Shown here: positions 5,941-45,208 of the stretch, piece by piece
How positions within the stretch are numbered: position 1 is the first letter of the stretch
How the letters are laid out: the number at the start of each line of letters is the position of its first letter
Assembly (NCBI GenBank): GCA_016234485.1
Contig: JACRBL010000036.1
Span: forward strand, 147,799-211,798
Length of the DNA stretch: 64,000 nt
Reading direction: 5' to 3'
Source of the DNA: Chloroflexota bacterium
GTDB taxonomy: Bacteria; Chloroflexota; Anaerolineae; Anaerolineales; Villigracilaceae
The notes under the pieces: model-generated
Database searches by the model: none
Seen by the model: only the letters and a program-made list of their open reading frames with translations
What the model was told of the DNA's origin: nothing
Program-made: the position numbers and the translations under genes

Positions 5941-7391
5941 TATCCGAGAACCTTAAGGATGAATTCCGCCGTGCGTTTGCCAGCGCTTGCATCGGTGAAT
6001 GTAATTTCATCTTCCACGAATTTGCGGCGTTCTTTTGAATCGACGGTTCGATCTTTGAGATAAAGATTCAAAGCATCGCGCAATTCGTTCTCGTCTTTGG
6101 CCACGCGTCCCGCTTGGGCGAGACGGAAGCGTTGATGCGTCGGCCAGTCGCCGATCTCTTTGAGGGAGAGGGAGAATTTCCTCGGCTTGTTCCACCCGCC
6201 GGGGACGTCGATCGTCGCGGCGATCATCGGCGTATCGTGGACGGCGGTCTCGACCAGCATCGTCGAGTAGACGGTCACCACCACGTCGGAATATGCCATC
6301 ATCGAAGACTTCTCGTCCATGTCTTCGCCGCCGTAGTAGCCGAGCGATCCGCCCAACGCCACGGGCTGGACAACGTGGACGTGGGGATATTTTTTCTCAA
6401 GCTCGAAGACGCGCTGACGTTCGTCTGCAAAGATTTTCGGCTTATCTTGAAAATGACTCGGATGCAGGCGGATCAACAACTGCGAAGGTTCCGCCAGCGC
6501 ATCAGACGAGACCAGTTTCGCCAGCGCTTCGATGTTGGGATAGTTCGGCGCAAAGTGGACGAAACTGCTGGCGTAGGAAATTAACTTCCGTTGCGGGTCG
6601 AGGCCGTGTAGTTTGAAATACTCGTCGCGCGGCATGAGCCACTGCTTGCGGAAATACCCATCGTAGGAGGGGATGCCGCCGATGTGGACGCGTTCCGGAT
6701 TCCAGTCCGAGCCGAGGACCAACTCGTCCTTTTGCAGTTGCGACCAGCACGTTGCCCACTGTACGTCCGCGCCGCTGATGTTGTACGAGGAGGAATTGTC
6801 CCAGCCGACGATGACGGTCATATTCGGGATGCCGCGTCGGGCGGACTCGCGCAGGAGATAGCGGTCCATGCGCCAACCTGGAGTCGAAGCGATGACGAGG
6901 TCGGGTTGGTATTTGTCGAAGAGGTCGGCGTAGAGATTCGGCGTGAAGCGATTTTGTGCCTTGACCAAATATTTGCGCGCCCACGAAAAATTCCGCAGGA
7001 GGAAGGTCGCGAGCGCCGCGGGAATCCAAACGCCAAGGCGGAACTTCCAGCCGTTCTCGGCCCAGACCTCCCAGATGTGGCTGTCCATGGCTTCGGTGTT
7101 GATGCGGCGCGAGCCTCCGATGCGGCGCAGGTAGGCGAGGAGCCATTGGAGGCGGGGGGAGACTTTTTTGGCGTAGTCGTTGGCTTGGGTGAGGCGGAGG
7201 CTTTCAAAGGTGATCTGATTATTGCGTATTGCGTATTGCGTAAAACGTGCGGCAAGTTTTTCGACAAGCGCGTCGTCGGTGAGGAGGATGATGTCAATGT
7301 CCGCGTTGAGAAGCGTCGGGATGACGTCGCTTTGGAGGAAGTAGATGATTGCCATGCCGTGGTCGGCGGAGATGAAGATGCGTTTGGTCAT
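5940..7391 (-). CDS. Capsule/CDP-glycerol-type glycosyltransferase-like protein
   Basis: MTKRIFISADHGMAIIYFLQSDVIPTLL; VIVGWDNSSSYN; LLIRLHPSH; DVVVTVYSTMLVETAVHDTPMIA, typical of GT-B capsule/teichoic-type enzymes. Confidence 0.7.
   Translation of the reverse strand: MTKRIFISADHGMAIIYFLQSDVIPTLLNADIDIILLTDDALVEKLAARFTQYAIRNNQITFESLRLTQANDYAKKVSPRLQWLLAYLRRIGGSRRINTEAMDSHIWEVWAENGWKFRLGVWIPAALATFLLRNFSWARKYLVKAQNRFTPNLYADLFDKYQPDLVIASTPGWRMDRYLLRESARRGIPNMTVIVGWDNSSSYNISGADVQWATCWSQLQKDELVLGSDWNPERVHIGGIPSYDGYFRKQWLMPRDEYFKLHGLDPQRKLISYASSFVHFAPNYPNIEALAKLVSSDALAEPSQLLIRLHPSHFQDKPKIFADERQRVFELEKKYPHVHVVQPVALGGSLGYYGGEDMDEKSSMMAYSDVVVTVYSTMLVETAVHDTPMIAATIDVPGGWNKPRKFSLSLKEIGDWPTHQRFRLAQAGRVAKDENELRDALNLYLKDRTVDSKERRKFVEDEITFTDASAGKRTAEFILKVLG
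7221..7248. repeat. Intragenic 7-bp array (ATTGCGT)
   Basis: ATTGCGT x3 then AAAACGT, inside the glycosyltransferase-like CDS. Confidence 0.85.
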
Positions 7392-7434
7392 TTGGTCGGG
7401 TGGTCTTGTGGTCGGGTGGTCTTGTGGTCGCTAT
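7387..7434. repeat. 8-bp tandem array O2
   Basis: GTCATTTG|GTCGGGTG|GTCTTGTG|GTCGGGTG|GTCTTGTG|GTCGCTAT. Confidence 0.93.
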
Positions 7435-41529: not shown

Positions 41530-44009
41530 CGTTCCAACAGTCTTTCGGCCTCCTCGTACGCGACTTTGTACTTGTACTCTCCGCCATCGCAGTACGCCAA
41601 CTTCAACGCCTCCTGCGCATGGAAAATCGCAGCCTCTTTATCGCTCAATTGACCTTCGACCTTCGACCTGTGACCATTCATCGCAAGTTCCGCGAGGAAC
41701 AGATTCACATCCGCCCCCTGCAACACATACCCGCTCCTCTCCGTGATCATCAGCGCCTCGGACGCTTTTTCCTGCGCGTCCTTGAAATCGCCTTGGGCGT
41801 AACGCAAGCGGGCAACATCAAGCAGGATGTCGGCTTCCGCGTCAACCGAATTGATTTGCCGACAGAGATCGAGCGCTTTGGACAGGTTTTCTTCTGCCAG
41901 AGTCAAATCGTTATTCATACGATTTGCTGCGCCAAGAAACCGATAAGCGTCAACATAGTCGCGAGGAGTTGGCGCGTCCGTTCTTGCGTCTTCATCCGCA
42001 AATTCAAGGGCGCGTTGGGCACATTCGATTGCCGATATTCGATATTCGATATTCGACTTTCGAGTATCGAGTATTGCTTCTTCCCTTGCCATGAGCAGGA
42101 AACGCAGGGCGCGATATGACCAAACATTTCCTTCTGCTTGAATTGCAGATAATTTCTTAAAGATAGGTAGCGCGTGGTCTTGCTCCTGTTCTGCGTCCTG
42201 CCATTTTCCACAATAAGATAAGATACGCGCTAACTCATGATGACCGACGGCTTCTCTGAATTCATCCGCAATCTCGAGGGACAGGTCAATGCGGCGGCGC
42301 AGGTTGCGCTCCGCGGCGCTCAACTCGCCAATGACCAGTTGCTGTTGCGCCACGTTCCCCAGGTCAATGGCGAGATTTTTCTTGTCTCCATCACTTCCAT
42401 CCAATTTCGCTGAAATCAAAAATAGCCTTACTGCATTTGCGGGTTGTCCTGAAAGAGAGTAAGAGTTAGCAAGTCCGTTTGCCGTCCAAGATTGTGAACG
42501 TTTTGTATTTACTTTGGGCGGTTTGTCTTCGCCGTCGAGAAATAAAGCGCGTAAAAGTTCAATGCGTAATTGATATGCGCCAAATTGATAATAAGTTGGC
42601 TGGTTAATTCGGTCATAAAACAACTTCAATGCCTCATCCAAATTCCCCGCTCCAACCATGTGATGATACAGTTCGATAACGGGCGCGAGATCTTCCAATG
42701 CTTTCACCCTCGTGTTCGTCACGGGCATGTTGTCGCCAAAATACTTGGCAAGTCCGACGTGCGCCTCTTTGCGCCGCTTCTCGTCAGTGAAGTGGTCATA
42801 CGCATAATGCCGCACGATCGGGTGCATATCGTAGCGTTGGTTCTCGCCCGCAAATTGCAAGAGTCCGCGCTTGCGCAGGTCGAGCAGGGCTTTATCCAGG
42901 TCGGGGCTGGGGAACACCTTTTTGAGCACGGCGTATTCCATCGAGCCGCGAAAGCAGGAAATCTTGCTCAGCAAGTCCCTGCGCTCGGTGGCTAAACTTT
43001 CATACGCGCGTTGCAAAACGTGATGTCGTCTGGCTCTCACATCCTCGAAGATTTCCAGATTCTTCACCGCCGCAATATCGCCCCGATGCGCGTGGTCTTC
43101 GTTGATCAAACCGACCAGCAGGCTCAAACTCAACGGGTGATAGCCGTACGCTGCACACACTTCGATGATCTCCGCGCGTGTGGCTTTTATGCCTTCGTTG
43201 TGGAAGTACGTCACCGCGTCCTCGGGCGAGAAGGCGGAGAGCGACTCATCGCGGCAGCCTTTGAGCAGTTTGCCGTCGGCGCTCTCCAAGGCGCGCGGAC
43301 ACAGGCGCGTGGTCATCAAGACTTTGGACTTCGTGACCGCGCCGCTCAAGCCGCGCAGGAAGGTTTCCGTCAGCGGGGAGGAGCAATCGCGCTGGGAGGG
43401 GTCAATGTCGGCATCCTCATCGTCGGATTGAAGCGCCGCATCCATCCGACCGTATTGCCTCAGCAACCGCTCGAAGCCGTCCAGCGCTATCAGGATGTTC
43501 GTCCCGCGCATGGCTTCCAGCAGATCATTGACCTGCTGCCGCGCGGACTCTTTGACCTCCACGCCGAGATGTTTCAGCGTTTCGGAAAGAAAACTCTCAA
43601 AGCCCGATTCCTTTTCGTAGAACGACCACCAGACCGCCGTCGGCCACTGAGCGCGATCCACGCGGTTGAACCACGTCCACGCCAGCGCGGATTTGCCAAA
43701 TCCGCCCAACGCGCGCAGCATCAGCAGGTTGTCTTTGTCATTGCCCAACCATTCATCGAGAATCTTGAGTTCCGTTTCTCGTCCAGTGAATGTCGCCAGA
43801 TCACCGTAGCGATGACCGTAAAACCACTTCGATGTTGAAGGTTGAACGTTGAAGGTTGCAGGTTTGGCTTCGTCAGCCGCGTGAATATTGATGACTGCGT
43901 GATCGCCAGTGACGATAACGCTCTTGTCCACGTTTCCCCCAACGGCAACTCCTCCCGCCGAAACGGACTGCGAAACTTTTGTCTCTTCAGGTTTCTTCGT
44001 CTTTGCCAT
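41517..44009 (-). CDS. STAND (NB-ARC-like) ATPase with TPR C-terminus
   Basis: FTGRETELKILDEWL, LLMLRALGGFGKSALAWTWF P-loop, ILIALDGFERLLRQYG Walker B, many TPR-like helices; N-terminal GGVAVGGNVDKSVIVTGDHAVINIH. Confidence 0.88.
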   Translation of the reverse strand: MAKTKKPEETKVSQSVSAGGVAVGGNVDKSVIVTGDHAVINIHAADEAKPATFNVQPSTSKWFYGHRYGDLATFTGRETELKILDEWLGNDKDNLLMLRALGGFGKSALAWTWFNRVDRAQWPTAVWWSFYEKESGFESFLSETLKHLGVEVKESARQQVNDLLEAMRGTNILIALDGFERLLRQYGRMDAALQSDDEDADIDPSQRDCSSPLTETFLRGLSGAVTKSKVLMTTRLCPRALESADGKLLKGCRDESLSAFSPEDAVTYFHNEGIKATRAEIIEVCAAYGYHPLSLSLLVGLINEDHAHRGDIAAVKNLEIFEDVRARRHHVLQRAYESLATERRDLLSKISCFRGSMEYAVLKKVFPSPDLDKALLDLRKRGLLQFAGENQRYDMHPIVRHYAYDHFTDEKRRKEAHVGLAKYFGDNMPVTNTRVKALEDLAPVIELYHHMVGAGNLDEALKLFYDRINQPTYYQFGAYQLRIELLRALFLDGEDKPPKVNTKRSQSWTANGLANSYSLSGQPANAVRLFLISAKLDGSDGDKKNLAIDLGNVAQQQLVIGELSAAERNLRRRIDLSLEIADEFREAVGHHELARILSYCGKWQDAEQEQDHALPIFKKLSAIQAEGNVWSYRALRFLLMAREEAILDTRKSNIEYRISAIECAQRALEFADEDARTDAPTPRDYVDAYRFLGAANRMNNDLTLAEENLSKALDLCRQINSVDAEADILLDVARLRYAQGDFKDAQEKASEALMITERSGYVLQGADVNLFLAELAMNGHRSKVEGQLSDKEAAIFHAQEALKLAYCDGGEYKYKVAYEEAERLLERLKR
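41651..41678. repeat. Intragenic 7-bp array (GACCTTC)
   Basis: GACCTTC|GACCTTC|GACCTGT|GACCATT in STAND CDS. Confidence 0.8.
42027..42075. repeat. Intragenic 7-bp array (GATATTC)
   Basis: GATTGCC|GATATTC|GATATTC|GATATTC|GACTTTC|GAGTATC|GAGTATT in STAND CDS. Confidence 0.92.
43835..43862. repeat. Intragenic 7-bp array (TTGAACG/TTGAAGG)
   Basis: TTGAAGG|TTGAACG|TTGAAGG|TTGCAGG in STAND CDS. Confidence 0.87.
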
Positions 44010-44025
44010 ACTCCACCTCCATCTC

Positions 44026-44065
44026 GACTACGCGACTATGTGACTATCTGACTATGAGACGATCA
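44026..44065. repeat. 8-bp tandem array O6
   Basis: GACTACGC|GACTATGT|GACTATCT|GACTATGA|GACGATCA. Confidence 0.9.
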
Positions 44066-45147: not shown

Positions 45148-45208
45148 CGAATTTCACGAATTTCGCGAATAAACCTTTGAAAATTCGTTAAATTCGCGAA
45201 ATTCGTGG
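45148..45208. repeat. 9-bp inverted array (CGAATTTCR / AATTCGTNR)
   Basis: CGAATTTCA|CGAATTTCG|CGAATAAAC ... AATTCGTTA|AATTCGCGA|AATTCGTGG. Confidence 0.9.

Follow-up and report, generated by a model that had tools for sequence, protein, structure and literature searches.

Why should one gene carry three in-frame arrays of seven-base repeats, each spelled in a different word, with a fourth array across its stop codon? This window, by which we mean the whole 64,000-nucleotide stretch that was analysed, raised that question at a STAND NTPase gene, for which a preliminary description proposed four independent array events and suggested that genes of the STAND/TPR type tolerate such insertions, or exploit them to vary the length of their sensor rapidly. 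We think it likely that the three peptides are products of heptamer arrays that have accumulated genome-wide in this bacterial family; the STAND gene has no special role beyond offering several tolerant loops.

The host gene occupies 41517-44009 on the minus strand as a frame of 830 codons without interruption. Its product (830 aa) matched TPR_12 in Pfam (6.8e-10) and AAA_16 at 4.7e-4, below the cut-off of that model, and a ColabFold model built from 16 homologues (mean pLDDT 79) matched the folds of the STAND/TPR protein PH0952 (6mfv), MalT, Apaf-1 and Avs3. The protein combines a P-loop NTPase core with a C-terminal TPR superhelix, and on these domain and fold matches the original label of STAND gene stands. 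PADLOC returned only a TPR model for the host protein, and among the homologues it assigned L003 and L005 an N-terminus of TIR/SEFIR type and L006 one of protease type. The homologues share a common core with swapped N-termini, which are TIR/SEFIR-like, trypsin-like or, as in the host gene, short. The family is strongly mosaic when L002-L040 are compared with positions 41517-44009, with N-terminal modules exchanged. Much of the NTPase core of the host gene is 90-99% identical at the DNA level to genes of other genera, and its C-terminal half, the sensor, is mostly 50-85% identical to them.

Four period-7 arrays passed the detection threshold in the window, compared with essentially none in order-3 Markov versions of it. 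The four arrays described earlier lie within a few bases of where they had been placed, three of them in frame in the STAND gene with three different words and the fourth containing the stop codon. Sites 1 to 3 are all read in frame on the minus strand. Site 1 (43834-43864) consists of GTTGAAG, GTTGAAC and GTTGCAG units and encodes PATFNVQPST (about residues 50-59, in a peptide placed at 50-61) in a disordered N-terminal segment. Site 2 (42033-42074) is a compound array of GATATTC (three units), GACTTTC and GAGTATC (1.9 units), encoding ILDTRKSNIEYRIS at residues 648-663, before a TPR helix; it amounts to about seven units of NNTCGAA, of which only three are identical. Site 3 (41651-41669) contains 2.7 units of GACCTTC, or GGTCGAA on the coding strand, and encodes RSKVEG in an inter-helix loop at residues 780-790. 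Three further arrays, with no strand assigned, lie at the ends of the gene: the GTTNAAC array at the 3' end (41501-41525), which holds the stop codon TAA (41517-41519); an intergenic ATCAGTN array just downstream (41434-41466), which has a 20-bp stretch in common with another array of this genome (L047:19232); and, immediately ahead of the start codon, an octamer array, GACTATNN (44025-44060). Elsewhere in the window, nine-base repeats (CGAATTTCA and AAATTCGTG, 45148-45207) form a related period-9 class and encode an IREIREIRG-like peptide in one open frame, and octamer or 16-mer arrays with a constant GGTC core and a variable spacer (TGGTCGGG and TGGTCTTG) lie outside called genes at 7385-7430 and 36606-36661.

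In the structural model, site 1 closes a segment whose pLDDT stays under 50 (through residue 54), and site 2 starts in the loop before helix 652-676. Site 3 belongs to the C-terminal half, where a loop predicted with low confidence joins helix 761-776 to helix 789-805. The reading of the three peptides as occupants of variable loops or linkers is thus supported by the predicted fold. The last residues of the second peptide, SAIEC, are no insert, however: they form the start of a native TPR helix.

We compared the three sites across 17 homologues. At site 1, the host gene alone has a significant array, and it differs from homologue L028 by exactly 21 bp, in frame (CTTCAACGTTCAACCTTCAAC). Site 2 has significant period 7 in 10 of the 17, all in one register, with TCGAATA-type units in the host gene, its own paralogue L038 and L030 from another genus, and AATCGAA-type units in L002, L003, L031, L039, L029, L004 and L032. 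The tract around site 2 forms an island of ~90% DNA identity among the host gene, L030 and L038, and recombination or conversion probably moved it among these three; because the tract lies in a mosaic gene, part of this sharing is ordinary gene recombination. Site 3 is periodic in about 7 of the 17, with GGTCGAA in the host, GATACGA in L002 and L003, and GTTGAAG/GTTGCAG in L039, L032 and L005; it is a plain linker in L029, L037, L038 and L036. Point mutation with homogenisation of units, instead of replacement, could account for some of the word changes, among them that from GGTTGAA to GGTCGAA at site 3. Close homologues keep the reading frame through the arrays. REP-like hairpins (CCCCTC..GAGGGG type) are present in frame at the array loops of some homologues, at site 3 in L004 and L035 and at site 2 in L005. 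The STAND 3' end is another place of array recurrence: a heptamer-like sequence, unlike that of the host gene, covers or directly follows the stop codon in L005 and, less clearly, in L003, L028 and L032.

The 21-bp difference from L028 supports the earlier reading at site 1. Four independent, recent events are not supported, since homologues in other species have arrays at the positions of at least sites 2 and 3. The result named in the preliminary description as refuting it, homologues with the same peptides in non-repetitive codons, was not seen. Lengths at sites 2 and 3 form no ladder of seven-residue steps across the homologues; length differences are various, and many homologues are equal in length but carry another word. 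The one exact seven-residue case is site 1.

The arrays are not peculiar to the STAND gene. In an 815-kb sample of this draft genome (18%), we counted 109 arrays, including 43 of period 7, 14 of period 14 and 9 of period 8; 464 kb of the genome yielded 25 arrays, compared with none in Markov controls. In the first 464 kb sampled, arrays of period 7, 8, 14 or 16 were 7.8 times as dense between genes as within them. Array-bearing genes in this genome and genome G190 are mostly housekeeping genes unrelated to one another and encode, among others, MutL, MutS2, an E2 acyltransferase, a MurD-like ligase, an HRQ1-like helicase, glycosyltransferases, YqeY, an AMP-ligase and a nucleotidyltransferase. 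In G190, the mismatch-repair genes MutL and MutS2 (L061:7270-9126 and L065:17407-19998) have heptamer arrays in the stretches that separate their domains. G190 and G005 are array-rich, as is the present genome; G014 is an example of an array-poor one. Among 32 coding arrays, only 6 had their midpoints within a Pfam envelope, compared with 14.7 expected (P=1.5e-4). Arrays also cluster, with 7 within-gene pairs versus 0.57 expected (P=2.5e-4) and 11 neighbours within 200 bp versus about 1.4 expected, and the probability of three arrays falling in any one sampled gene is about 0.02. The three-in-one-gene pattern is therefore real, yet it is common to the E2 acyltransferase, whose three arrays are placed in its two linkers, and to MutS2, which also has three. 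After Pfam annotation of these other array-bearing genes, we dropped the idea of a STAND-specific role.

The clearest case of one word standing where another stands in a relative is a glycosyltransferase, found in this genome at L048:2527-3678, whose array encodes residues 190-200 in an interdomain linker, between WGVDLQHF and LFCNRSWE. We assembled 112 family orthologues (the L048 gene and 111 in L263-L375) from homology-chosen frames, with one genome per species. The linker is significantly periodic in 74 of the 112, with period 7 in 60 and period 8 in 10, compared with 29 of 448 control windows (6.5%) in the same genes. The 58 clearest arrays use 36 words, which form 19 single-linkage clusters at one mismatch, and there are examples of unrelated words even between glycosyltransferases whose flanks are 89-94% identical in amino acids. 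The linker measures 12-15 residues in 88 of the 112. It is thus a standing array site at which length is roughly held and the word is exchanged. A nucleotidyltransferase linker has the same pattern on a smaller scale, and STAND sites 2 and 3 are smaller cases. For work on word replacement, the glycosyltransferase linker is better suited than the STAND gene.

Words are drawn from a limited set. The 77 period-7 arrays use 38 words, compared with about 74 for random genomic heptamers (minimum 65 in 1000 draws), and 9 of 23 words are shared with a different genus of the family, compared with 0.9 expected. We considered a universal dictionary and rejected it: 9 words were shared with 8-kb loci of other phyla versus 4.3 expected (maximum 12), which is not significant. 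The words are lineage-specific, since this sharing is no more than chance. Single words do range more widely: GGTCGAA in more than three exact copies is found in many phyla, which makes this type of array a widespread one. Four-unit GTTNAAC arrays are present at about 26 places in this genome and at 0-2 in each relative. TCGAATA arrays are found at about 7 loci here, at many in the congener G005 and at 0-1 elsewhere; one G005 run (G005:C5:120271-120345) reaches ~11 perfect units, and other congeners have none or one. Pure GTTGAAG is absent from this genome and has 13 matches in G031.

Identical compound tracts recur at unrelated places. The coding array of a STAND paralogue (L041:10771) and an intergenic array (L089:11057) have unrelated flanks but agree exactly over 34 bp made up of several unlike units, and site 2 has a 25-bp exact match to the same intergenic locus. 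Across 152 family genomes, units in the order TATTCGA-CTTTCGA-GTATCGA were found 7 times, in STAND genes and at unrelated loci, whereas one permuted order of these units occurs in none of the 152. The dictionary and the shared compound tracts favour copying of array tracts over independent slippage.

Variation among units is concentrated at particular positions. The share of variation in the top column averaged 0.52 in this genome (0.435 in matched simulations) and 0.60 in loci from other phyla (0.417 in matched simulations), and in GTTNAAC 47 of 62 mismatches fell on N (8.9 expected), although these tests overstate independence, as arrays that use one word probably have a common origin. The G190 set, a small one, did not show the concentration. 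A dyad arrangement of the N positions, a further candidate, was found in 7 of 26 GTTNAAC arrays, by estimate not above what marginal frequencies allow, and was set aside. GTTNAAC units also form a 28-bp palindrome, GTTGAACGTTTAACGTTAAACGTTCAAC, which is perfect at L088:1986-2013, has one mismatch at L041:7306-7333 and has near copies at ~26 places in this genome.

The explanation that we consider probable is that lineage-specific heptamer arrays are copied between loci, tolerated in loops and overwritten by other words. Each genome holds a limited, lineage-specific set of words. Most of the arrays are intergenic, and those within genes are found chiefly in loops, in interdomain linkers and at protein ends. 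As 7 and 8 are not multiples of 3, a long enough array encodes the same repeating peptide in all three frames, and a stop-free word would therefore be tolerated wherever a loop can absorb it. Short array tracts may spread from locus to locus where their cores share brief homology; candidate routes are template switching directed by microhomology, or conversion, in addition to slippage on the spot. Selection would keep only in-frame, stop-free and roughly length-neutral outcomes, so that an occupied linker could be overwritten repeatedly by other words. In our comparison, which covered one genome per species, no donor-recipient event was caught among closely related strains.

Among the alternatives, local origin is the foremost, although we judge it unlikely. 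It holds that polymerase slippage at random seven-base seeds makes each array in place, that linkers are the sites where arrays survive, and that species grow different words independently. In the majority of bacterial genomes, heptanucleotides are described as the most frequent class of long simple repeat, an excess ascribed to polymerase slippage over ~7 nt, the contact length of the polymerase having been proposed as the reason (Mrazek et al. 2007, in the accounts given by PMC4679880 and PMC4692102). The run of ~11 perfect units in G005 fits local slippage, as does the presence of coding arrays in some orthologues and their absence from others; however, random seeds would give about 74 words where 38 were found, exact compound tracts of several unlike units recur at unrelated loci, and the abundance of individual words differs strongly between congeners. 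A bolder form of the copying model, which we hold to be similarly improbable, is that a dedicated process writes and overwrites 7-8 bp arrays from a dictionary peculiar to each genome, in whose words, such as GTTNAAC, the core is constant and one position varies, with flexible linkers as conserved landing sites at which words are exchanged without loss of frame.

It is more doubtful still that the arrays are short mobile elements, palindromic and REP-like or MITE-like and moved by a transposase, whose heptamer substructure is incidental. Some arrays are strong inverted repeats, the perfect palindrome at L088:1986 among them, and REP-like hairpins occupy the same loops in L004, L035 and L005; yet the arrays form a continuum in length and in where they begin and end, we saw no terminal repeat, and only 4 of 61 arrays had inverted symmetry above unit-shuffled controls (p<=0.05). 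A hairpin had been considered as a general property, because site 2 and several other arrays looked inverted, and was rejected on the same controls (p=0.38 for site 2). Overall, the arrays do not have inverted symmetry beyond that of a periodic word, and we found no general hairpin or transposon signature among them.

The proposal that STAND/TPR genes use heptamer arrays for rapid in-frame variation of sensor length is very improbable: the clustering of three arrays in one gene and the exact 21-bp step at site 1 speak for it, but unrelated genes such as those for the E2 acyltransferase and MutS2 also carry three, the homologues form no seven-residue ladder and often keep the same length with a different word, the glycosyltransferase linker holds its length while its word changes, and the STAND arrays are probably stable because they are short and imperfect.

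The copying and overwriting of arrays that we propose bears on a wider problem, as neither the origin nor the consequence of the long-known heptanucleotide excess of bacteria has been well accounted for. The glycosyltransferase linker, at which most of 112 species carry a 7- or 8-base array, in ~36 words among the clearest, is a natural experiment that separates selection on length and frame from selection on sequence and opens the spread of arrays to direct test. Such word replacement is unexpected, family-wide and located at the flexible joints of many ordinary proteins. It suggests that protein linkers may be continually rewritable by a process at the DNA level, which affects how linker evolution, ortholog alignments and "novel" peptides in environmental genomes are read.

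Arrays of this kind are themselves known, and word replacement at fixed linker sites appears to be undescribed in the literature that we searched. Rickettsia palindromic elements and REP-like inserts, as the present arrays do, place short repeats in frame in unrelated housekeeping genes, but they are fixed palindromic elements, whereas the heptamer arrays have no fixed element. The tandem heptanucleotides of the cyanobacterium Calothrix have been described as intergenic. Like the present arrays, they comprise several words per genome, as cited in PMC4692102. Tandem repeats in the ORFs of archaeal Borgs also add disordered segments to proteins, but their units are divisible by three, perfect and recent (PMC9879509), whereas units here measure 7-8 nt, with 7 or 8 in coding arrays, and are often imperfect. 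The direct repeats of the word TAACTGA in marine Beggiatoaceae and in cyanobacteria (MacGregor 2015, PMC4679880) resemble the present arrays in being heptamers, mostly intergenic, sometimes overlapping stop codons or lying at the protein periphery, and suspected of mobility without a known mechanism; they have one dominant word with related heptamers rare, whereas dozens of words coexist here and differ between species at one site. The closest likeness is to the long simple sequence repeats (LSSR) with units of 5-11 nt, heptanucleotides being dominant (Mrazek et al. 2007, following PMC4679880 and PMC4692102). The present arrays are likewise tandem units longer than chance, with period 7 dominant and Markov controls near zero, and, so far as these accounts describe LSSR, both are overrepresented, phylogenetically scattered and commoner between genes; the present arrays differ in their lineage-specific dictionary of many words, their place in in-frame interdomain linkers and the replacement of one word by another at orthologous sites.
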